A program made the position numbers and the translations under genes. Source: Chloroflexota bacterium (GTDB lineage Bacteria > Chloroflexota > Anaerolineae > UBA4142 > SHND01). From it: a stretch of 64,000 nt of DNA. The notes below the pieces were generated by a model, which saw only the letters and a program-made list of their open reading frames with translations, was not told the origin of the DNA and did not search any database. Each line of letters starts with the position of its first letter. Positions within the stretch are counted from its first letter, which is position 1. Where the stretch lies: NCBI GenBank assembly GCA_029778615.1, contig JAKOPZ010000085.1, positions 62,001-126,000 of the forward strand, given 5' to 3'. This document shows positions 943 through 60,956 of the stretch, piece by piece.

Positions 943-3258
943 TTACGGCAATTTTTCGACACACGCTTCCGCCGCAGACTGCATTGCGCGTGCGGCATCG
1001 TTCACGGGCGTATTCGCGTTGAGGACGCCGAGTTGGTTCGGGCGAATCGCATCCCAAATGCACGTGAGGATATTGGAATCGGGCGGCGCGATGCCGAGCA
1101 GCATTTGGTCGCTCATGCCTTTGAGAATCGCGTCGTTCGTAATCGTCGCGTCTTTGAGGGCGTCGTTCAGCGCGGGCAAGCGGCGGAATTTTTTCGCCAT
1201 ATCCAATTGAATGGGTTTGGAGGTGACGAATTGGATGAATGCTTGAGCGATTTCCAATTTTGGTCCCTCCGTGCCGGCAGGCAAGGCAAAATACACGCCG
1301 CCCGTGTAGGGACGCGGATTATCATTTTTTGAAACTTGCGGCAGGCGCGTTACGCCGAGGTCGCTGCCAAATTTTGCCGCGTACGCGGTGAGCGCTTCGT
1401 CACCGTTAATAATCATTGCCGCGCGTCCTTCGGAAAAAATCGCGTCGGCAATCGCATTGTCCGAATCGGGCGGCGAAACTTTTTTGTCCTTGAATGTTTT
1501 CAAGAGAGTGAGTGTTTCCGTCATGGCGCGTGTGTCGAGCGTCGGCGTTTTGCCGTCTTCCGCGACCACGCCGCTCTTGTACGCGCCGAGCCAGGGCATG
1601 AGCCAAAACGGATTCGTGGTGTCATAGACCAACGTGTATTGTCCGATGGGTTCTTTGGTCAACGTTGCGCCGAGACGAATCAACGCGTCCGTGTCTTTGG
1701 GTGGGTCTTTCAAGAGTTTTTTGTTGTAATACAAAACGAGATTGTTACCTGTCGAAACGGGCACGCCGTACAAAAAACCGTCGCGGGTTGCGCCGGCGAT
1801 GGATGGCGAAACAAACTGCGTCGGCGTGATGAAATCGGTGACGCGCAGCAAATCGCTCGCGGCGAATTGTTGGATTTCCTCATTCGTCGTCCACAACAAG
1901 TCCACGCCGCCGCTCGCGTCGGCAAACGTGTCGCGCACGGTTTGCGCGTCTTTGGGCAAGAGTTTGATTTCCACACCACGATTCGCCGCCGCGAACGCGC
2001 CCGCGAGATTCGCCAGATAAGCATACATGGGACTCGCGGCATCCTCTTGCGTCCACACCGTCAACGTGCCGCGCGCATTGACCTGCGGCGCGCTGGCGCC
2101 TGCGGCGAGCGGTGCAAAACACGCGCCCAGTTGGTTGGAGCTCACAATGCCGGTCTGTACGAGTGCGGCTTGAATGGTGTCCGATGTCACGGTGCGGACG
2201 GGAATGGCGATTTGAAAGACATCGCGGTCATCAATCCGAATCGTGTTGTTGGGAAAATGTGCGGCTGCGGCGCTTGTCCCATTCGCGAACGCGATGGCAA
2301 GCCGCGCGGCGGAACGCGCGAGTTCGGCATCGTCGAGCGTCAAATCCAAATTCTGCGCGCCGCTGCACAACGCCGCGTAATTTTCCGGGTCCGCGCCCGC
2401 GCCTGCGACAAACACCTTGCCCGTCAATTTGAGTTCGTCCAGCGCGCCCAGCGCGCCGCGCGCTAAAGCGGAATTGTTGGCAAGGACGGCTTGCACATTG
2501 TTTTTCGCTTTGGTCGCTTCTTCGTTCGTCGCGGTTTGTGCGGCAGCGGCATCACTCACCGCGCGGTCGGCAATGATTTTCACCTGACTCTTGGCAATCT
2601 GCGGGTCGAGAATGTCGTGATAGCCGCGCGTGATTTGCAAAGCAATCGGGTCGCCTGCCGCGCCTTCGAGCAGAATAAAGTTCCACGGCTTTTTTAAATT
2701 TTTCGCGGTGAGCCAATCGAGCGCGGCTTGCGCCTGCACGCGTCCCATTTGCGCGAGGTCATGCGAAACATACGCGTCAAGGTCGCGCGTGTTGATGAGG
2801 CGGTCAAACGAAATCACTTGGACGCCGGCTTTGTGCGCCGCGTCCACATACGACGCTGCCAAATCCGCGTCCACCGGCTGAATGACCAAAAGTTTTGCGC
2901 CGTCATCGAGCGCGGCTTCTACCTGCGCGCGCTGTGTGCTCACATCATTGTCCGCCGCTTCCACGCGCACCGTGCCGGTGATGCCCCGAGTTTCTTCGGT
3001 CAAAATTTGCTCGAACAATTCCTGACGCGGCGTATCAATGGACGCGAGCAGGAACGCAATTTTCAAACCGCTTGTCGTGACGCGCGTGGCAGTCGGTGTG
3101 GCGCGCGGCGCGACGGTTGTTGGCGTCACTTGCGGTTCGGGCGTGGTCGCGCCGGGCGTGCCCAAAGCGGGCGCGGTCGTCGGCGCGGGCGTCTGTCCGC
3201 CGCACGCGGCAAGCAAGAGCATTAGAAAAATAAAAACGGTAAGGCGTGATTCGTTCAT
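943..3258 (-). CDS. Hybrid lipoprotein: ribose/xylose-type binding domain fused to a MalE-type binding domain
   Basis: This 771-residue lipoprotein has its lipobox cysteine at position 19 (LLLAAC) and a Pro/Thr/Ala linker to about residue 60. The first half (about 65-390) reads as a type I periplasmic binding protein: LKIAFLLASIDTPR, then QPVDADLAASYVDAA and VQVISFDRLI, as in XylF/RbsB sensors. From about residue 397 (GTLTVWTQEDAAS) to the end it is a separate type II extracellular solute-binding protein of the MalE group (LYGVPVSTGNNLVLYYNKK, AAMIINGD). Either half alone has the length of a full binding protein. It starts 3 bp after the GH13 stop, so translation is probably coupled. A sugar capture or sensing role is inferred. 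The fusion of two unrelated fold classes is unusual. Confidence 0.85.
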   Translation of the reverse strand: MNESRLTVFIFLMLLLAACGGQTPAPTTAPALGTPGATTPEPQVTPTTVAPRATPTATRVTTSGLKIAFLLASIDTPRQELFEQILTEETRGITGTVRVEAADNDVSTQRAQVEAALDDGAKLLVIQPVDADLAASYVDAAHKAGVQVISFDRLINTRDLDAYVSHDLAQMGRVQAQAALDWLTAKNLKKPWNFILLEGAAGDPIALQITRGYHDILDPQIAKSQVKIIADRAVSDAAAAQTATNEEATKAKNNVQAVLANNSALARGALGALDELKLTGKVFVAGAGADPENYAALCSGAQNLDLTLDDAELARSAARLAIAFANGTSAAAAHFPNNTIRIDDRDVFQIAIPVRTVTSDTIQAALVQTGIVSSNQLGACFAPLAAGASAPQVNARGTLTVWTQEDAASPMYAYLANLAGAFAAANRGVEIKLLPKDAQTVRDTFADASGGVDLLWTTNEEIQQFAASDLLRVTDFITPTQFVSPSIAGATRDGFLYGVPVSTGNNLVLYYNKKLLKDPPKDTDALIRLGATLTKEPIGQYTLVYDTTNPFWLMPWLGAYKSGVVAEDGKTPTLDTRAMTETLTLLKTFKDKKVSPPDSDNAIADAIFSEGRAAMIINGDEALTAYAAKFGSDLGVTRLPQVSKNDNPRPYTGGVYFALPAGTEGPKLEIAQAFIQFVTSKPIQLDMAKKFRRLPALNDALKDATITNDAILKGMSDQMLLGIAPPDSNILTCIWDAIRPNQLGVLNANTPVNDAARAMQSAAEACVEKLP

Positions 3259-3261
3259 GGG

Positions 3262-4947
3262 TTAATCGAGTTGCAGAATGTTTGCGGAAAGCGGAGCGAG
3301 GGTAAAAGAAAATTGCGCGGCGTTTGCGGACGCAAGCGGATTGTGCGTAAGCAAATCGGTCAATGTGATTTCGCCGCGCGCGAACGCGCTCAAATCCAAA
3401 CTCACGGTCGCGGATTGCGACGCGGTATTGAGCGCAACGACGATAGTTTCATCATTGGTCACGCGCGCAAACGCAATCACAAGCTTGTGATTCGAATCGG
3501 CGAGGGGGACAAATTCACCATGACGCAATGCGTCATGCGTTGCGCGCAGCGCGACGAGCGCGCGATAGTGTTCGAGCAGCGAATCGTTTTTGTCCCGTTG
3601 TTCCTCTACTGAAATTCCATCGTTCGGTTGATTAAAGCGCGTTGCAGGTTTGTACCAACTTGTCATGCCCGCGCCGCTTTCGGATGCGTACCAATCCATC
3701 GGCTCGCGCACGGTCTTGTCGCCGTCGCTTTTGTCGCCGCGCATTCCAATTTCTTCGCCGTAATAAATCATCGGCGTCGCGGGGAGCGTGAGCAATAATG
3801 TTGCCGCCAATTTTGCACGCGGCATTTCTTGGTTTGTGCAATCTATTATCTGCGCTCCCGCTGGCGCGAGGCAATCTGCAAGCAGTTGCGACATGACGCG
3901 CACGGTGTCATGGTTGTTCAAGAATTGTACGGTTTGCGCGCCGGGATTGTACAAACGCTTTTGCGCTTTCAATGACGATTCAAATGACGCGGGAGAACCT
4001 TTGCCCAACAGCGCGCTGCTGCCCACGCGCTCGTGCGAACCCATCAGGTCAAAGTACACGGGAAAATTGAACGTCGCATCAAATTCATTGTCATAGTACG
4101 GCGCGATTTTCAATCCGCTTGTCCACACTTCGCCGAGCAAGAGAAAATCGGCAGAGACGTTTCCCCGAAACGTCTTTACTTGCGCGCGGAACGCTTTCCA
4201 AAAATCGTGTGAGACGCCCAACGCGTAATCGAGGCGATAACCGTCTATGTTTGCTTTTTCAATCCAATATTTTGCTGCATCAATCAAATACGCGCGCGTT
4301 TCGGGATTGTCTTGATTGAGACTCGGCAGGTCGGGCGACGCGCCAAAGTACTCGTACTTGCGGTGTTCGTCGTCGAGCCAGCGGTACCACTTGGCGTATT
4401 TCGATTGCGGATTGCCGAACGCGTCTTGAAAAAACGGATGCTTGTCGGATGTATGTCCCGCGACAAAATCCAGAATAATTTTTATATTGCGCTTGTGCGC
4501 TTTATTCGCCAAATCAATCAAGTCTTGTTCTGTTCCAAAATCGGGATTGATTTTGTAATAGTCGGTCGTGTCGTAACCGTGATAACTCGGCGACGGAAAA
4601 ATGGGTGTAAGCCAAACCGCGCCAATGCCTAAACCTTTCAAGTAATCCAGTTTTTGCGTGATGCCTTTCAAATCGCCAATGCCGTCGCCGTTTGAATCGT
4701 TAAAGCTGCGCGGAAAAATTTCATACAACACGACATCGTTGAACCACGCGGGCGTTTGGATGGATGGTTTCGCGGAGGTGGGAGAGGGAACGCGCGTCGG
4801 TCGAAGCGCGGTCGGTTGATTCGTTGCTGTTGCGACGGTTTGTAGAGTTGGGATTGACGTACGCGTTGCGGTGGGGGGAATATTTGTAAAAGAATTGCAA
4901 GACGACAACAGAGTCAAGCATACAGCAAACAACACGGGTTTGAACAT
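3262..4947 (-). CDS. Secreted GH13 alpha-amylase-family glycoside hydrolase (lipoprotein)
   Basis: The protein has 561 residues, with a lipobox cysteine near 17 (LLSSC) and a Thr/Pro linker to about residue 65. The GH13 barrel starts at VVLYEIFPRSF. Catalytic landmarks are visible: D240 (nucleophile, DGYRLDYA), E273 (acid/base, LLGEVW) and D347 (NNHDT). Region I reads DFVAGH, with Gly where Asn is usual. It should hydrolyse alpha-glucans or maltodextrins outside the cell and feed the upstream permeases. The gene lies 38 bp downstream of an intrinsic terminator that follows the permeases, so its expression probably depends on read-through or its own promoter. Residues about 256-266 (QVKTFRGNVSA) are encoded by a palindromic element at 4155-4175 and look like an extra loop before the acid/base strand. 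Confidence 0.93.
   Translation of the reverse strand: MFKPVLFAVCLTLLSSCNSFTNIPPTATRTSIPTLQTVATATNQPTALRPTRVPSPTSAKPSIQTPAWFNDVVLYEIFPRSFNDSNGDGIGDLKGITQKLDYLKGLGIGAVWLTPIFPSPSYHGYDTTDYYKINPDFGTEQDLIDLANKAHKRNIKIILDFVAGHTSDKHPFFQDAFGNPQSKYAKWYRWLDDEHRKYEYFGASPDLPSLNQDNPETRAYLIDAAKYWIEKANIDGYRLDYALGVSHDFWKAFRAQVKTFRGNVSADFLLLGEVWTSGLKIAPYYDNEFDATFNFPVYFDLMGSHERVGSSALLGKGSPASFESSLKAQKRLYNPGAQTVQFLNNHDTVRVMSQLLADCLAPAGAQIIDCTNQEMPRAKLAATLLLTLPATPMIYYGEEIGMRGDKSDGDKTVREPMDWYASESGAGMTSWYKPATRFNQPNDGISVEEQRDKNDSLLEHYRALVALRATHDALRHGEFVPLADSNHKLVIAFARVTNDETIVVALNTASQSATVSLDLSAFARGEITLTDLLTHNPLASANAAQFSFTLAPLSANILQLD
4153..4178. repeat. Palindromic element, AGACGTT family, copy 1 (inside GH13 gene)
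   Basis: The 9-bp arms AGACGTTTC (4155-4163) and GAAACGTCT (4167-4175) flank a 3-nt centre. The same AGACGTT..AACGTCT core is found inside the alpha-2-macroglobulin gene and inside pbpC. Here it is translated as KTFRGNVS; the other two copies are read in the other two frames. Confidence 0.7.
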
Positions 4948-4984: not shown

Positions 4985-5017
4985 AAAAAATGCGAGTGCG
5001 GTGCACTCGCATTTTTT
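4985..5017 (-). terminator. Intrinsic terminator after malG-like gene, inside the operon
   Basis: A perfect 9-bp stem TGCGAGTGC/GCACTCGCA with a 3-nt loop is flanked by runs of A and T on both sides. On the minus strand it follows the malG-like stop at once and precedes the GH13 gene by 38 bp. It could lower expression of the hydrolase and hybrid-lipoprotein genes relative to the transporter. Confidence 0.85.
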
Positions 5018-5019
5018 GC

Positions 5020-5979
5020 TTAACCCTTCACGCCGCCGACCGTCAAACCGCCGACGATGTATTTTTGCAGTGCGAGATACACTGCCGCGACGGGGAGCGC
5101 GACGAGAATTGCCATCGCGGAAAATTTTGACCAGGGTGTGTTCGCCGCATATTGCCCGGTCATGTTCCACAGCGCCATCGCCAGAGTGAAATCTTGTGGG
5201 TTCGTGAGGAATTGCCACGAGAGCGCAAATTCCGTCCACCCCGTGAGAAAGCCGAGAAACGCGGTGACGGCGAGTGCAGGCAGCGCAAGGGGCAGCATGA
5301 TTTGGAAAAATGTCTGGTTCGCGCTGGCGCCGTCAATCATTGCCGCTTCTTCCAAATCTTTGGGAATCGTGTCAATGTATCCTTTGAGGTTCCAAATCGC
5401 GAAAGGCAGCGCGCCCGAAATCATTGCCAGTCCGACGCCGATGAGTGAATTGCGTAAATTGAAATTCACGTCGCCGATGGTGAATTGCACTTTGTTCAAC
5501 AGCACGAATAACGGCGCGAGGGACGCGACCGTAGGCAGCATCAGCACAATGATAATGCCGAGCATAATCACCTGCCGCCCGGTAAATTTGAATCGTGAGA
5601 ACGCGTACGCGCAAAACACGCCGACGAGGACGGACAATACCGAAACACTTGTCGCCAACGCGAGACTGTTGCGCGCGAGCGTCCAAAAGCCGACCGGATT
5701 GTTGGTGGGTTTGTCAATCACCGCCGCGTACGCGTCGAGCGACGCGTTGGCGGGAATCAGCGTCAACGTCAGCGGGCGCAAACCGCGCGGGTCGAGCGAC
5801 ATGCTCACAACCCACAAAATCGGAAAGAGGACGATGAATGAAATGAACAACAGCAGGAGCTGGAGCAGCAGCTGCCGTCGCAGTTTCATCTTTTTTTCTT
5901 GCGGCGCGAAACTTGCCGCGCGCTCTTTTTTGTCCGCCCCCAGAATGTCTTTGCCTAAAGATACGGTTGTCGTTGCCAT
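5020..5979 (-). CDS. Carbohydrate ABC transporter permease, MalG-like
   Basis: The protein has 319 residues with six predicted membrane segments, the first at about residues 36-57. The inner-membrane permease EAA loop that contacts the ATPase reads LEEAAMIDGASANQTFF near residues 215-231. An N-terminal cytoplasmic extension of about 30 residues precedes the first helix. With the MalF-like protein encoded just upstream it should form the membrane channel of a CUT1 family importer for oligosaccharides delivered by the binding lipoprotein. No ATP-binding subunit gene is nearby, so a shared MsmX-like ATPase encoded elsewhere is inferred. I see no strong Shine-Dalgarno sequence at the chosen ATG; an internal Met at about residue 31 is an alternative. 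Confidence 0.93.
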   Translation of the reverse strand: MATTTVSLGKDILGADKKERAASFAPQEKKMKLRRQLLLQLLLLFISFIVLFPILWVVSMSLDPRGLRPLTLTLIPANASLDAYAAVIDKPTNNPVGFWTLARNSLALATSVSVLSVLVGVFCAYAFSRFKFTGRQVIMLGIIIVLMLPTVASLAPLFVLLNKVQFTIGDVNFNLRNSLIGVGLAMISGALPFAIWNLKGYIDTIPKDLEEAAMIDGASANQTFFQIMLPLALPALAVTAFLGFLTGWTEFALSWQFLTNPQDFTLAMALWNMTGQYAANTPWSKFSAMAILVALPVAAVYLALQKYIVGGLTVGGVKG

Positions 5980-6062: not shown

Positions 6063-7082
6063 TTACACATCATAACTTTCGGTGGCGCGAGAAATGCGAT
6101 TGGTGCCAACCGTAATGATAATCAAAATAATCATGATAAAGACACTGAACGCCGCTGCCAAGCCGTACAGCCGCTGGGCGTTGACCAGATTGAACGCGGT
6201 CGTCACCAGAATTTCGGTTTGCCGCAGCGGTCCGCCGCCCGTGATAAAGTACACGAGATTGAACAAGTTGAACGTGACAATCATGCCATACATCGCAGCG
6301 GGAACCATCGCCGGGCGCAGGAGCGGAAGCGTGATGCTAAAGAATTGGCGCACCGGCGACGCGCCGTCCATCGAAGCCGCTTCATAATATTCTTTGTTGA
6401 TGGATTGGAGCGCACCGCTTGCGACAATGGTCATAAAGGGCCAGCCGAGCCAGATGTTGGTGATGAGCAGCGCATAGTACGCGAGCGGGAGAGGAATAAA
6501 AGGAATCGGCGGGTCTACCTGATCAATCCAGCGAATGTGGAACGCGGCTTCGGGCATCCCGAAGATACCACCAAACGCCGCGAGGACTTGATTGATAGCG
6601 CCGTAATCGGCATCGAACATGTTCCGCCACACGGTGCCGATGACGAGGGTGGGAATGACGATGGGCAAAACAAAAATCGCGCGATAAATTCCGCGAAACC
6701 ATAATCCTTGCGTGTTCAAAATTACTGCGATGATAATGCCGATGGCGACATGGAAAATAACGTTCGAAAACGTCCACCACAAGTTGAACGCGAGCGTGTT
6801 CCAAAAATTGAAATTCGGAATCAAGCTGGATACCGCGCCGCTCAGAATATCAATGTAATTCTGCAAGCCGACGGAATCAGGCAGGGGCGCGTCAACGCGT
6901 AAATTTTTGATGCCATAATTCGTGGTGGACATCCACAAGCTGTAGGCAATCGGATAGTACGTGATAATCGTCATGATTATCAACGCGGGGAGAATATATA
7001 AATAAGGAGTTATCGTGCGGAGAAAATTCGAACGTCGCGGGGGTGCGAGAGAATCAGCGCGTTCCTTGGTCATCGTCGCCAT
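6063..7082 (-). CDS. Carbohydrate ABC transporter permease, MalF-like
   Basis: The protein has 339 residues. The first membrane segment (about 27-48, TPYLYILPALIIMTIITYYP) is followed by a long periplasmic loop (about 50-105) typical of MalF-type subunits, then five more hydrophobic segments. The EAA loop reads EYYEAASMDGASPVRQFF. It pairs with the MalG-like permease 83 bp downstream. The start is supported by an AAGGAG Shine-Dalgarno sequence about 8 nt before the ATG. The preceding gap of about 280 bp holds a hairpin that may set the ratio of binding protein to permease. Confidence 0.94.
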   Translation of the reverse strand: MATMTKERADSLAPPRRSNFLRTITPYLYILPALIIMTIITYYPIAYSLWMSTTNYGIKNLRVDAPLPDSVGLQNYIDILSGAVSSLIPNFNFWNTLAFNLWWTFSNVIFHVAIGIIIAVILNTQGLWFRGIYRAIFVLPIVIPTLVIGTVWRNMFDADYGAINQVLAAFGGIFGMPEAAFHIRWIDQVDPPIPFIPLPLAYYALLITNIWLGWPFMTIVASGALQSINKEYYEAASMDGASPVRQFFSITLPLLRPAMVPAAMYGMIVTFNLFNLVYFITGGGPLRQTEILVTTAFNLVNAQRLYGLAAAFSVFIMIILIIITVGTNRISRATESYDV

Positions 7083-7291
7083 GGAGATTGCTCCTTTGCC
7101 GTTGCCGCGCGGGGCAACGAATCAAGCACCGGTTAACTAAAGAGAAACATCCTACACCATGCGCCAGAAACTTTTACGATGCGTTACACGTTCAATCGCG
7201 CGGAGGGTGAAACAAACGCGTTGCGTTGGGGGAACGATTGAGGCGTTGACGCAACGCGTTCATGCAATTATATACGCGATTCAATGTCATC

Positions 7292-7332
7292 ACTCGAAGG
7301 ATTACGACAGCCATTGTCGCAACCCTTCGAGT
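7292..7332. repeat. Stem-loop between binding-protein and permease genes
   Basis: The 9-bp arms ACTCGAAGG (7292-7300) and CCTTCGAGT (7324-7332) enclose a second 5-bp stem (CGACA/TGTCG). There is no T run on the minus strand, so it fits an mRNA-stabilising or partial-termination hairpin downstream of the binding-protein gene, as in many sugar ABC operons, or a palindromic repeat. The rest of the 7083-7363 gap shows nothing else I can support. Confidence 0.6.
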
Positions 7333-7363
7333 CAATCTGCTACTTGCGTACTATTTGTTCTTT

Positions 7364-9799
7364 TTATTTCCCGTTCGCTTTGTTCATGGCATCGCACGCT
7401 TCTTTGACGCCATCAACCGCAGTTGATTTTCCTTCGATGACTTTGGTCACCATGTCGCCGAACGGGCTCCAAAAGTTTCCAAATTCTTTGGACTGCGGGC
7501 GTGGGAAACCTGCCGAACCTGCGTTTGCGAAAGCGGCAACGAGCGGGTCGCTTGCGGTCACATCATTGCGAACCGTCGGCGCACCGGCTACGTCCGCGTA
7601 AATCTTTTGCGCGTCCGTGCTCGTGAGCCACAGCGACAAGTTGAACGCGTTCGTCAATTTATCGCCGGTGGTGTTTGCATTGATGTACCAGCCGTCAATC
7701 CCGGAAAGCGGATTCGCCGCCCCTTTGGGACCGGCGGGCATGGGCACAACGCCCAGTTTATCGCCGAGGTCAGATTTGTAATCGCCGAGCACCCATGGAC
7801 CATTGATAATCATGTCCACTTGTCCTTGGCGGAACAACGTGTCGGCTTTGCCGCCATCGGTTTCAAATTGTGCGCCTGCGGCTTTGAGGTCAACGAGATA
7901 CTGCATCGCATCCGCCCAGCCGCCTTGGTCGGCAATACACTTGCCCGTGTCGTCCATAAGCTTGCCGCCGAACGCGCCGCTGAAACCAAAGTTGTGGTAC
8001 GCGTTTTGATTGAGGACGAGTTTTTTGCCGCTCTTGACAAGCGCCATCAAATCATCCGTTGTCTTGGGCGGTTCGGGAACGGTGGACTTGTTATAGTACA
8101 ACGCGACCGCTTTGACGATGACGGGCGTGCCGTAAATTTTTCCATCTACGGTGAGTCCCTCAATCGCGAGCGGGGTGTATTGACTTTTGTAATCCTTGAT
8201 CATGTCGTCCACCGGAGTGAGCAATCCCGCGCGGACTTCGTTGCCGAGATTGTCGTTCGGGACGGTGAACATGTCGGGACCGCCACCTGCGGCGGCTTCG
8301 GTTTCGTACTTGTTGAAAACTTGGTCGAACGGAATTTGGAGCACGTTGATGGTCGCGTTCGGATTCTTGGCTTTGACCATATCCAAAACTTGGCTCAACG
8401 CTTTTTCTTCCGCGCTGCCCGTGCCGTACGCATTCCAAATTGTCACTTCGCCCTTGACTTCGGGCAACGTCGTGGTGGTGGTTGTCGTGCCGCCCGCCGT
8501 CTTGTTGTTGGCTTTGTTCATTGCGTCGCACGCTTCTTTAACACCCTGCTCGGGCGTGGACTTGCCTTCAAGAACTTTGGTGACCATATCGCCGAACGGT
8601 CCCCAGTAATTGCCAAACTCGGCAGACTGCGGACGCGGGAAACCGGTCGAGCCCGCGAGCGCGAATTGATTCACGAGCGGGTCAGTCGCTTGCACGTCAC
8701 TGCGAACGGAAGGCGAACCCGCAACGTCCGCGTAAATCTTTTGCGCGTCCGCGCTGGTGAGCGCGAGCGCGAGTTTCACTGCTTCGGCTTTTTTCGCATC
8801 CGAAGCGTTCGCGTTCACATACCAACCATCAATACCGGACAATGGACCGGCTGCGCCGCCGGGACCTGCGGGCATCGGCACGACGCCGAGCGAGTTGCCG
8901 AGGTCAGATTTGTAATCGCCGAGCACCCACGGACCGTTGATAATCATGTCCACTTGCTTTTGGCGGAACAACGTATCGGCTTTGCCGCCGTCGGTTTCAA
9001 ATTGTGCGCCTGCGGCTTTGAGGTCGAGCAAGTACTGCATCGCTTGGGCGAAACCGCCTTGGTCGGCGATACACGTTCCGTTCGCGTCCATCAATTTACC
9101 GCCGAACGCGGGAAAGAAACCAAAGTTGTGATACGCGTTTTGATTGAGGACAAGTTTTTTACCGCTCTTGACGAGGTCTAAAAGTTCTTGGGTCGTCTTG
9201 GGCGGAGTGGGCACGGTGTCTTTGTTGTAATACAACGCGACGGCTTTGACGATGACCGGCACCGCGTAGATTTTTCCGTCAACGGTCACGCCTTGAACCG
9301 AAAGGGGCGTGTAGGCATCGAGTTTGCCTTTGAGCAAATCGTCGAGCGGGGCGAGCAAGCCCGCGCGGACTTCGTTGCCGAGATTGTCGTTTGGCGCAGT
9401 CCACATATCGGGACCACCGCCTGCCGCCGCTTCGGTTTCGTACTTGTTGAACAATTGGTCAAAGGGGACCTGAAGCACGTTGATTGTGGCATCGGGATTG
9501 TCCGCTTTGATTTTGTCAATGATTTGAGTGAGAGCTTTTTCTTCCGAGCTGCCTGTGCCGTACGCGTGCCACAGCGTCAACTCGCCGGTGATTTTTTCAC
9601 CGCCGGCGGAGGGCGCTGTTGTCGGCTGTGCGGTCGCCGTAGTCGCTTGGGGTGCTGCGGTTGGTTGGGGTGCCGCCGTCGGTTGGACGGGGGCAGTCGT
9701 CGGTGCGGGCGCGGGAGTTGCCGGGGTGCCGCACGCGACAGCAATCAGCGTGAGCGCAAGGACGAGCGCGCTCAACGCAAATAGTTTATTGAATTTCAT
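7364..9799 (-). CDS. Tandem-duplicated MalE-type solute-binding lipoprotein
   Basis: This 811-residue lipoprotein has its lipobox cysteine near residue 23 (LIAVAC) and a long Thr/Ala/Pro/Gln linker to about residue 69. Two full MalE-type binding modules follow, residues about 71-435 and 449-811, nearly identical over long stretches (FDQ.FNKYETEAAAGGGPDM, KKLVLNQNAYHNFGF, KADTLFRQ.QVDMIINGPW). A Thr-rich hinge joins them. Each half has the length of a complete binding protein, so this is a two-module receptor rather than two genes. GGAGGAG lies about 8 nt before the ATG. It is the first gene of the transporter operon and should capture malto-oligosaccharides or related glycans. The two copies may differ in ligand or give avidity; this is inference. 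Confidence 0.93.
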   Translation of the reverse strand: MKFNKLFALSALVLALTLIAVACGTPATPAPAPTTAPVQPTAAPQPTAAPQATTATAQPTTAPSAGGEKITGELTLWHAYGTGSSEEKALTQIIDKIKADNPDATINVLQVPFDQLFNKYETEAAAGGGPDMWTAPNDNLGNEVRAGLLAPLDDLLKGKLDAYTPLSVQGVTVDGKIYAVPVIVKAVALYYNKDTVPTPPKTTQELLDLVKSGKKLVLNQNAYHNFGFFPAFGGKLMDANGTCIADQGGFAQAMQYLLDLKAAGAQFETDGGKADTLFRQKQVDMIINGPWVLGDYKSDLGNSLGVVPMPAGPGGAAGPLSGIDGWYVNANASDAKKAEAVKLALALTSADAQKIYADVAGSPSVRSDVQATDPLVNQFALAGSTGFPRPQSAEFGNYWGPFGDMVTKVLEGKSTPEQGVKEACDAMNKANNKTAGGTTTTTTTLPEVKGEVTIWNAYGTGSAEEKALSQVLDMVKAKNPNATINVLQIPFDQVFNKYETEAAAGGGPDMFTVPNDNLGNEVRAGLLTPVDDMIKDYKSQYTPLAIEGLTVDGKIYGTPVIVKAVALYYNKSTVPEPPKTTDDLMALVKSGKKLVLNQNAYHNFGFSGAFGGKLMDDTGKCIADQGGWADAMQYLVDLKAAGAQFETDGGKADTLFRQGQVDMIINGPWVLGDYKSDLGDKLGVVPMPAGPKGAANPLSGIDGWYINANTTGDKLTNAFNLSLWLTSTDAQKIYADVAGAPTVRNDVTASDPLVAAFANAGSAGFPRPQSKEFGNFWSPFGDMVTKVIEGKSTAVDGVKEACDAMNKANGK
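7367..9589 (-). repeat. Intragenic tandem duplication (two ~1.1-kb copies)
   Basis: Copy A is about 8500-9589 and copy B about 7367-8455, both inside the binding-lipoprotein gene. Long DNA stretches are the same in both, for example around 7857-7892 and 8992-9030. Synonymous and conservative changes show that the duplication is not brand new. Confidence 0.88.
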
Positions 9800-9954
9800 C
9801 GTTCTTCTCCTCCAGAGAATTCGAAAATTAGAGTTTGCGGGCAGGGTCGCTCACCTCGCCGCGCAAATTGGCGTAAGTTAGTAGGTTGGGATTGTTTAAG
9901 CTACACCTCCTCGGAGTTGGAATGGCTTTGTCGTCGAAGCTTATCGGAACCGTA

Positions 9955-28823: not shown

Positions 28824-28954
28824 GTACGCACAAAAGGAGCGCGGTGTTCAATCTGAACACAGCACTCTCCTCCAAAATTAGGACGCAGAACGATTCAAAA
28901 TAGTTCCGACAGACGTGACAAGTCTTGAGAGACCTGTCACGTCTCCAACCAGAG

Positions 28955-28960
28955 TATAAT
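28955..28960 (+). promoter_or_regulatory. -10 box (TATAAT) directly before the LuxR-type gene
   Basis: TATAAT ends only 6 bp before the ATG at 28967. A transcription start at the normal distance would fall on or next to the start codon, predicting a leaderless mRNA. No Shine-Dalgarno sequence is present. Confidence 0.6.
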
Positions 28961-28966
28961 CCCCAC

Positions 28967-31753
28967 ATGCCTACCCCGCGCGCACAATTGCTCACCACAA
29001 AACTTTATGCGCCGCCACCGCGTCCCGCACTTGTCACGCGCCCGCGCCTCACCGACAAACTCGACGCCGCGCTCAAATTACAACACAAGCTCATTCTCAT
29101 CTCTGCGCCCGCGGGCTTTGGTAAAACCACCATCATTAGCGAATGGCTGCAACAAGAACGAGGAGGGAGGAGAGTGGAGGGAGGTGCGCGTCCCTCCACT
29201 CTCCTCCCTCCACTCTCCACGTCCTGGCTCTCTCTCGACGCCGATGACAACGACCCCGCGCGTTTTCTCACCTATTTCATCGCGGCAATGGCGAAACTCG
29301 ACCCCGGGCTTGAATCGCTGTTTGACTTGATTCAACTTTTGCAGACGCCGACGCTGCCGCCCGCTGAAACCATTTTATTACAAATTCTCAATACCTTTGC
29401 CGAACAAATTCCAACCGCGCAGTGTCTTGTTGTGTTGGACGATTTTCATGTTGTGGAACGCGCGGAACTGCACAACGCGCTCGCGTTTTTTCTACAGCAC
29501 GCGCCGCCGAATTTATTGCTCGCCATCACCACACGCACCGACCCGGCGCTCCCGTTGGCGCGGCTGCGCGCGCGCGGACAATTGACGGAATTGCGCGCGT
29601 CCGATTTACGCTTCACCTCTGCCGAAGTTGCCGCGTTTCTCAAACAACTGATGAATTTGCAGCTCACCGCGCAGCAAATAAAACAACTCGAATCGCGCAC
29701 CGAAGGTTGGATTGCAGGTCTGCAGCTCGCCGCGCTCTCGATGCAAAACGGCGGCGACATTGAAAATTTTTTGCGCGCGTTCACGGGCAGCCATCATTAC
29801 ATTGTTGATTATTTGGTTGAAGAAGTTTTACAAAATCAATCCGTCGAGCGTCAACACTTTTTGTTACAAACTTCCATTCTCGAACGCATGAATGGCGCGT
29901 TGTGCGATGCGGTGACGGGCGGTTCAAACGGACAAGCGACGTTGGAACAATTGGAACGCGCGAATTTATTTGTCACGCCGTTGGACGCGGCGCGCAATTG
30001 GTATCGCTATCATCATCTCTTTTCCGAATTGCTGCGGCATCGTTTTCAAGCGCAATTCAAACCCGCCGAACAATTTTTGTATCACACGCGCGCGAGCGAT
30101 TGGTTCGAGCAGAATGGTTTGGAACGCGAAGCGATTCAACACGCGCTCCTCGCACAAGATTATGTGCACGCGGCAACATTGCTCGAGCGCATCACCGATA
30201 CAATTCTCAATCAAGGCGAAACGGCGACGCTGCAAGGATGGATGGATGCTCTGCCTGAAACCGTTTTACGCGCAAGTCCGCGTTTGTGTTTGGCGCGCGC
30301 GAACGCGCATGTGATTGTCGGCGAAATTGATAGTGCGGAAACGTGGATTCGGGCGGCGGAATCTTCTGCACAATCATCGCCCGAACGCGTGTTGCTCTTG
30401 AGCAAAGTGGACGCGCTGCGCGCGGGTCTTGCGCTCTATCGCAATGATTTGCCGCGCACGATTGAACTCGCCCAACGCGCGCTGAAGACATTACCCATCG
30501 AAGAAGTACGCTTGCGCGGCGCAGTGATGTTTTATTTGGGACTCGCGTACGGATTCAGTGACCACATTGCCGAAGCATACGCGACGTTCACTGCGTCCGC
30601 GCGCGAAGCATTTCAAGCGTCCGATTGGCACACCGCGTTGATTGCGTTGCAAAATCAAGCGTGGGTTTTATTTCTGCAAGGCAAATTGCGTCAAGCCGCA
30701 CAAATGTACAATCAAGCGCTCACGCTCGCCGTCGAACGCGGCGTCGCCCAAGTTCCCGCCGTCGGCGGTTTTCATTGGGAACTCGGACGCGTGTTGTACG
30801 AATGGAATGATTTGGCAGAAGCCGAACGCAAAATCGAAATCGGAATTGAAAATAGTACGCGCGGAAATTTGCCGCGCATGTTGCTTTTCAGTTGCGTGAA
30901 CATGGCGCGCCTGAGACTCGCGCAAAAAAATTTCGCGGCGGCGGATGAATTGTTGACGCGCGCGCAATCGCTCGTCGAAAAATACAATTTGTCGTTACGG
31001 TATGCGGGAACGGTCACCGCCGAACGCGTGCGTTATTGGATGGCGATTCACGATTACGCGTCCGCGAACGCGTGGCTGCAAACGATGAACACGGGCGACG
31101 ATATGCCGCGCGATTATTTGCACGAAGTTTTGCATCTCGCCATCGCGCGCGTCTTGCTCGCGCAAAACGAAACTGCGTCCGCGCTCGACCGCCTCGAACT
31201 TTTGAAACAAACCGCATTAGAAGTGGGACGCAACGGCACCGCGATTGAAGGTTTGATTTTGCAGGCGTTGGCGTTTCAACAGCAAGGCGCGCCAAACGAC
31301 GCGCTGCGCGCGCTCGAACACGCGTTGACATTGGGCGAGCCCGAAGGGTACACGCGTTCGTTTCTCGACGAAGGCGAAGCGATGCAAAAATTACTCGCAC
31401 AGCTTCACGCGCAATTGATTCACCGCGTTCAATCGGAAGAGGTCGCGCGGCGCGCAGCGTATTGCGAACGATTGCTCAATTCGTTTCCCCCCGCAACATC
31501 AACCGCTGCGTCTGCAATCCCACAACGCGCGGCGCGTCCCTTTGCTGCCACACTCGCCGAACCTCTCACCGAACGCGAACTTCAAGTGCTGCGCCTTCTC
31601 GCGCAAGGATACACCAATCAACAAATCAGCAATGCCCTCTTCATTTCTATCGGTACCACGAAAAAACACCTCAACAACATTTTCGGCAAATTGAGCGCCA
31701 CCTCGCGCACTCAAGCCCTCCTCCGCGCCCGCGAGTTGGGCTTGCTAGAGTAG
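28967..31753 (+). CDS. MalT-like LuxR-family regulator (LAL/STAND type)
   Basis: The ATG at 28967 gives 928 residues; an upstream TTG would lie in the promoter. Layout follows MalT: LLTTKLYAPPPRPALVTRPRL, Walker A SAPAGFGKTT, Walker B CLVVLDDFHVV, a winged-helix/arm region, a long TPR-like helical sensor (about 420-830), and a C-terminal LuxR helix-turn-helix (EPLTERELQVLRLLAQGYTNQQI...GTTKKHLNNIFGKL). It should bind ATP and an inducer and activate transcription. About 20 residues before WLSLDADDNDP (GGRRVEGGARPS...) come from an in-frame inverted repeat. The two downstream beta-helix proteins are candidate targets, but no operator can be shown. Confidence 0.93.
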   Translation: MPTPRAQLLTTKLYAPPPRPALVTRPRLTDKLDAALKLQHKLILISAPAGFGKTTIISEWLQQERGGRRVEGGARPSTLLPPLSTSWLSLDADDNDPARFLTYFIAAMAKLDPGLESLFDLIQLLQTPTLPPAETILLQILNTFAEQIPTAQCLVVLDDFHVVERAELHNALAFFLQHAPPNLLLAITTRTDPALPLARLRARGQLTELRASDLRFTSAEVAAFLKQLMNLQLTAQQIKQLESRTEGWIAGLQLAALSMQNGGDIENFLRAFTGSHHYIVDYLVEEVLQNQSVERQHFLLQTSILERMNGALCDAVTGGSNGQATLEQLERANLFVTPLDAARNWYRYHHLFSELLRHRFQAQFKPAEQFLYHTRASDWFEQNGLEREAIQHALLAQDYVHAATLLERITDTILNQGETATLQGWMDALPETVLRASPRLCLARANAHVIVGEIDSAETWIRAAESSAQSSPERVLLLSKVDALRAGLALYRNDLPRTIELAQRALKTLPIEEVRLRGAVMFYLGLAYGFSDHIAEAYATFTASAREAFQASDWHTALIALQNQAWVLFLQGKLRQAAQMYNQALTLAVERGVAQVPAVGGFHWELGRVLYEWNDLAEAERKIEIGIENSTRGNLPRMLLFSCVNMARLRLAQKNFAAADELLTRAQSLVEKYNLSLRYAGTVTAERVRYWMAIHDYASANAWLQTMNTGDDMPRDYLHEVLHLAIARVLLAQNETASALDRLELLKQTALEVGRNGTAIEGLILQALAFQQQGAPNDALRALEHALTLGEPEGYTRSFLDEGEAMQKLLAQLHAQLIHRVQSEEVARRAAYCERLLNSFPPATSTAASAIPQRAARPFAATLAEPLTERELQVLRLLAQGYTNQQISNALFISIGTTKKHLNNIFGKLSATSRTQALLRARELGLLE
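29162..29216. repeat. In-frame inverted word repeat inside the LuxR-type gene
   Basis: Perfect 21-bp arms (29162-29182 and 29191-29211; words GGAGGGA, GGAGAGT, GGAGGGA and complements) with an 8-nt loop sit within the NTPase domain coding sequence, adding about 19 residues without breaking the frame. Confidence 0.88.
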
Positions 31754-60498: not shown

Positions 60499-60956
60499 TT
60501 TTCTCGACTTGGTCGCGCGGGCAGAAGACGATTACACGATTGCAGTTTCTTCGCTACGCCGCAAAACACCATTGACGTACCCAAGTACGTTTCACGCGCA
60601 ACAGTGCGCGGAAAAATATCTCAAGGCGATGATTGTTGCGCGCAACAGTGCGCGGAAAAATATCTCAAGGCGATGATTGTTGCGCGCAACAGTGCGCGGA
60701 AAAATATCTCAAGGCGATGATTGTTGCGCGCAACAAACGCTTTTCACTTGTTCACGATTTAGTCAAGCTCAATGCCGAGTGCGAAAGCGCAGGAATTTTT
60801 ACCGGGTTTTCGAATGCTGATTTAGCCATTCTTTCTGAATACGCGGTAAAAACGCGTTACGCAGGCGATGAACCAACACTTGAAGAAGCGCAGGAGGTTT
60901 TGGGAATTGCGAAAGGAATACGAAAATTCGCGCGAAAATTTTTGGGGCTGAAATAA
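60482..60956 (+). pseudogene. HEPN-domain toxin, out of frame because of a 44-bp triplication
   Basis: Segment 1 (60482 to about 60645) starts SKPHSFLDLVARAEDDYTIAVSSL and ends HAQQCAEKYLKAMIVARN, then runs out of frame to a stop at 60676. Segment 2, other frame, resumes QQCAEKYLKAMIVARNKRFSLVHDLVKLN and continues to a normal C-terminus at 60956. The RNase motif R-x4-H (RFSLVH) lies in segment 2. The breakpoint is three copies of a 44-bp unit (60599-60730). One copy would rejoin the frames to give about a 128-residue HEPN protein, normal for the family; four copies would also be in frame. So the toxin is off in this state, perhaps reversibly. Confidence 0.88.
60599..60735 (+). repeat. 44-bp tandem repeat, three copies plus a partial
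   Basis: Three identical copies begin at 60599, 60643 and 60687 (CAACAGTGCGCGG...), followed by a 5-bp partial CAACA at 60731. 44 is not a multiple of 3. The flanks of the unit carry TTGCGCGCAA, a palindrome that could help slippage. Confidence 0.95.

Follow-up and report, generated by a model that had tools for sequence, protein, structure and literature searches.

A MalE-type lipoprotein with two solute-binding modules encoded beside MalF/MalG-type permeases in a Chloroflexota bacterium, and related tandems in its class

Most work on how many binding sites suit an ABC importer, and on whether additional ones raise its rate or broaden its range, concerns fused amino-acid and betaine systems. 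OpuA has one substrate-binding domain per polypeptide, fused to the transporter. Its ligand is glycine betaine. Each translocator is served by two receptors (PMC11065425). The tandem domains of GlnPQ from Lactococcus lactis are connected by a 14-residue linker, bind independently and provide four sites per transporter (PMC8025302). Tandem binding domains are already known for fused amino-acid importers; the present case differs in having a pair of MalE modules on a separate lipoprotein. We found no description of a natural MalE tandem in the largely open-access literature searched; the tandem MBPs that appear there seem, by their titles, to be engineered fusion tags.

Here, we describe such a receptor from a 64,000-nucleotide stretch of Chloroflexota DNA (contig JAKOPZ010000085.1), referred to as the window. 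Positions 7364-9799 are a single minus-strand ORF (9799..7364) of 811 amino acids, composed of the following parts:

9731..9799, minus strand: signal peptide and lipobox, aa 1-23, with Cys23 (direct reading of the ORF sequence)
9593..9730, minus strand: Pro/Ala/Thr-rich tether, aa 24-69 (sequence; pLDDT <50 at residues 14-66)
8498..9592, minus strand: module N, MalE-type solute-binding, aa 70-434 (Pfam SBP_bac_1 at aa 84-354; VIA-align to GacH 3jzj)
8459..8497, minus strand: Thr-rich linker, aa 435-447 (sequence; pLDDT <50 at residues 436-442)
7367..8458, minus strand: module C, MalE-type solute-binding, aa 448-811 (Pfam SBP_bac_8 at aa 473-753; NCBIfam MalE model at aa 449-806, below cut-off; Thermus 2gh9, 141 bits)

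The sequence-only reading had proposed one lipid anchor, two full MalE-type modules from an internal duplication and a Thr-rich hinge, and all three are borne out. The lipobox cysteine is followed by the tether, and both modules lie in the same ORF. The modules align over 364 residues with zero gaps and 283 identities (77.7%), and Pfam finds SBP_bac_8 (276 bits against a gathering score of 27) and SBP_bac_1 (202 bits against 26) in two stretches each, which places the protein by sequence among the MalE-type carbohydrate solute-binding proteins. The MalE equivalog model NF007011 of NCBIfam scores 241 bits for the whole two-module protein, under its curated cut-off of 291 bits. The hinge is 13 residues long and includes seven consecutive threonines. 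The architecture resembles that of GlnPQ (PMC8025302) in that a single polypeptide carries both binding domains, joined by a flexible linker of similar length (14 residues in GlnPQ, 13 in the window receptor), and serves one importer. In GlnPQ the ligands are amino acids and the binding domains form part of the membrane protein, whereas the tandem of the window is a separate lipoprotein: the 811-residue ORF has only solute-binding-protein matches, and the permeases are separate ORFs.

The AlphaFold2 model (13 sequences) has a mean pLDDT of 82.8 and a pTM of 0.55, so that it does not define the position of the modules relative to each other. Over most of the two modules pLDDT is close to 90 or higher, and the tether and linker fall below 50. 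Foldseek and VIA-align place the model among maltose-type receptors. The VIA alignments span residues 71-433, which correspond to module N, and match GacH 3jzj (Z 43.5, rmsd 2.0, 362 aligned), Streptomyces MalE 8art (Z 41.6, rmsd 2.4, 365 aligned) and Thermotoga 2gha (Z 40.9, rmsd 2.1, 351 aligned). Module N thus has the MalE fold. Module C was compared by sequence; its best natural receptor is Thermus 2gh9, and its sequence relatives and order of strands and helices agree with the MalE fold. The nearest relatives, by structure and by sequence, have maltose, maltotriose, cyclodextrin or acarbose as ligands. The window receptor shares with the MalE-type receptors Thermus 2gh9, Thermotoga MalE1-3, GacH 3jzj and cyclo/maltodextrin-binding protein 2zyk the SBP_bac_8/SBP_bac_1 families, the fold of module N, malF/malG neighbours and probably an alpha-glucan ligand. 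However, those receptors are single-module, and the window receptor carries two modules on one anchor.

An assembly error is ruled out as the origin of the tandem. The copies are 75.3% identical in nucleotides, and their longest identical run is 35 nt of the 1092 compared, so an assembler could not derive one copy from the other. The same tandem, with 80% identity over residues 3-811, is present in a separately assembled sister genome of the same genus (G001 and L026, counted as one record because their ORFs share length and domain scores; L026 is JACQWQ010000133.1, 12884 bases). Relatives that bear names are Chloroflexota MAGs, and their class is probably Anaerolineae. L042/L062 were likewise counted with L027, and L043/L063 with L028. 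The comparison of the two copies that had been suggested as a check gives dN 0.168 and dS 1.08 (NG86), and a dS of about 1.1 rules out a recent duplication. In a maximum-likelihood tree of 29 modules, window module N groups with sister module N (support 95/91) and window module C with sister module C (100/98), and all four are joined at 100/99. The pairing of N with N and C with C indicates that the tandem is older than the split of window and sister; this positional conservation is seen against one sister tandem.

Against the sister, dN/dS is 0.117 for module N and 0.113 for module C, values that are rough because dS, at about 1.1, approaches saturation. Both modules are under equal purifying selection. 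Of the sites that group the copies, 52 do so by species, 46 by position and 15 in a crosswise pattern. When each codon contributes a single site, species-type and position-type sites are clustered: they form 24 runs, where shuffles give 39.8 (p 0.00025), and as many as 11 species-type sites follow one another (p 0.038). The most extended species-type tract spans codons 195-243 of the module. Such tracts are best read as homogenised between the copies, presumably by gene conversion, in a comparison of two species.

Ligand contacts were mapped from E. coli MBP at 12 sugar-contact positions. The contacts were transferred by hand through alignments; Asp14 and Lys15 could not be aligned. The equivalents of Asp65, Tyr155, Trp230 and Trp340 are retained in both modules. 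Positions 66, 111, 153, 210, 330 and 344 differ from MBP and are identical between N and C. The modules are the same at 10 of the 12 mapped positions, the exceptions being 62 (Ala/Val) and 341 (Gly/Ser). Because only four of the 12 contacts match MBP, the ligand class is assigned indirectly: the pocket is only partly like that of E. coli MBP, and the modules would bind a malto-oligosaccharide-type ligand. A dead ligand site in one half was looked for, and none was seen in either the four retained contacts or the constraint, which is equal on both modules.

It had been suggested that the copies differ near ligand contacts and could bind different glycans. A division of this kind, with modules that differ in glycan or affinity and broaden the range of the importer, has a precedent in GlnPQ, whose tandem domains differ in ligand (PMC8025302). 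Modules N and C have been distinct since before the sister split, and 18 amino-acid positions separate them in both species. However, none of the 18 lies at a mapped contact, the equivalents of positions 62 and 341 show no N/C difference in the sister (aligned by hand), and parts of the modules look homogenised, which opposes divergence. The suggestion is therefore unsupported at the mapped positions, and we regard split specificity as unlikely. Dosage is favoured over split specificity by the agreement between the two pockets and by the homogenised tracts. We lean towards reading the protein as a double-headed receptor for an alpha-glucan-type importer that would double the capture sites per anchor and not the ligand range. 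This dosage reading is tempered by the 22% residue difference and by the grouping of modules by position; the two modules may have retained partly separate roles.

The receptor gene is followed downstream, on the same strand, by a permease pair and two further lipoprotein genes:

7083..7363, minus strand: 281-nt gap between the receptor gene and malF, with strong stem-loops (MFE -95.4 kcal/mol, z -2.88)
6063..7082, minus strand: MalF-type permease (BPD_transp_1 3.5e-16; MalF is the best NCBIfam model, below cut-off)
5020..5979, minus strand: MalG-type permease (BPD_transp_1 6.5e-22; MalG is the best NCBIfam model, below cut-off)
4985..5017, minus strand: terminator-like 15-pair hairpin after malG, the longest stem among the terminator-like sites listed
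3262..4947, minus strand: alpha-amylase-family lipoprotein (PF00128 1.6e-87)
943..3258, minus strand: another receptor with two modules, a fusion of xylose-type Peripla_BP_4 and MalE-type SBP_bac_8 (Pfam, NCBIfam)

The sister has a comparable perfect hairpin shortly past the receptor stop codon, as seen by eye. The hairpin layout in the gap between receptor and malF would allow production of receptor in excess of permease. Terminator-like sites number 17, against 16.9 expected in shuffles. No ABC ATPase was seen among the 18 window ORFs given to Pfam; the MalK-type domain OB_MalK has four matches on other contigs of the genome, which makes it likely that the importer uses a shared ATPase encoded elsewhere. 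A MalT-like regulator with TPR_MalT (4.3e-72) and a LuxR-type domain is encoded at 28925-31753 on the plus strand, about 19 kb from the receptor gene.

We propose that the single lipid anchor would carry two functional MalE-like modules, flexibly tethered, and that each would close on a malto-oligosaccharide-type ligand. Either module could dock on the same MalF/MalG pair, and a MalK-type ATPase encoded elsewhere would power the importer. The closest system worked out in detail is GlnPQ, with its independently binding tandem domains (PMC8025302). The main effect would be twice the capture sites per anchor close to the translocator. The neighbouring amylase invites a different view, in which the two modules together hold a single long alpha-glucan, by its chain or by two branches, for that enzyme to cut, so that the gain would be avidity and not dosage. 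The position of the amylase gene and the predicted flexibility of tether and linker fit multivalent capture of this kind. MalE-type clefts, however, accommodate short ligands, and several tandem loci (for example L028 and L076) have no amylase homologue in the limited stretches read. We consider multivalent capture highly improbable.

Tandems related to the window receptor recur in its class. Among 396 class genomes, 56 contain a match at E <= 1e-60, and in at least 17, counting that of the window, a match extends across both modules; at all 17 loci the two module matches lie within a single open frame. A sample of 400 genomes of the phylum yielded 57 matching genomes, 13 in the class and 44 outside it. 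Among the two best candidates per genome, no match in these 44 extends across both modules. The tandem counts are lower bounds, since only these two candidates were scored. G004, G011, G019, G040 and G204 were excluded from the count, because in each the gene or its contig is interrupted within a module or next to it. The tandems fall into five sequence groups, given here with the identity between modules N and C:

Group A (window, L026, L027, L028): 78-90%
Group B (L077, L078, L080, L086, L088): 83-98%
Group C (L079, L081, L082, L084, L085, L087): 26-38%
L076: 87%
L083: 90%

Homologues of malF and malG adjoin the tandem at 11 of the 17 loci, the window included; the six loci without them in the stretches read are group C.

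The tree of group A forces three changes of tandem label, for which one gain and two losses would suffice, and a single simple ancestral duplication for all tandems is not supported. The sisters of L027 and L028 in the tree are L044 and L035, respectively, each with a single module; both single genes are complete with stop codons. The first tree omitted L013, L018 and L019, which are cut, and L022. The second tree includes L030 as its sole single-module row and does not separate the origins of groups B and C, L076 and L083. The alternation of tandem and single forms, with close single relatives of L027 and L028, is what would be expected of a neutral, unstable passenger, a duplication repeatedly gained and lost through unequal recombination without any functional advantage. 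However, the window lineage kept its second copy until dS approached 1, with both halves strongly constrained, and the group C tandems, with their low identity between modules and largely position-specific clades, are far older. A neutral passenger is accordingly a very unlikely explanation. The recurrent tandems and their close single relatives beside homologous permeases (for example L027 and L044) constitute matched pairs for measuring the effect of a second module.

The hinges of group B are alike, yet most of its modules cluster by protein and not by position, as expected from homogenisation. The most homogenised pair seen is that of L077 (6272-8785, plus strand), with halves 98.3% identical. 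The modules of group C cluster largely by position, except for the C modules of L079 and L082, which indicates an old duplication. In the stretches read around group C, some of them short, malF and malG homologues are absent, and this family may be a sensor or orphan receptor.

The second two-module receptor of the window, the lipoprotein at 943-3258, combines a xylose/ribose-type Peripla_BP_4 domain with the MalE-type domain. Each of the five further genus genomes examined has a match of 70-80% identity over nearly the whole protein, and Pfam shows both domains in the four of these relatives submitted to it (L104, L106, L107 and L108). The remaining matches in the 396 class genomes begin at query residue 333 or later. 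We tentatively speculate that sugar receptors with two modules have arisen again and again in this Chloroflexota class as a means of multiplying receptors, comprising five homotypic MalE groups and, in the same locus of the window, the xylose-type/MalE-type fusion matched in all six genus genomes examined. Gene conversion would keep young halves alike, in line with dosage, and the one old group, diverged by position and not beside permeases, would possibly act as a sensor or adaptor.

The contigs of L013, L018, L019, L115 and L040/L041 start or stop inside the receptor gene, two of them at the identical module position, 264. Repeated modules seem to break assemblies, and tandem copies may be undercounted. 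L017 (373-2529, minus strand) encodes a MalE-type module followed in frame by Phosphonate-bd (PF12974, 3.3e-40). The gene lies at the end of its contig and includes a short internal repeat; it is either a further double receptor of mixed type or a chimera made in assembly. L027 encodes a 709-residue permease (7815-9941, plus strand) with BPD_transp_1 at C-terminal residues 504-701, preceded by an N-terminal part of about 500 residues in which Pfam finds no domain. The window also contains a tandem repeat at 60595-60735, with a 44-bp unit in 3.2 copies and 100% matches.
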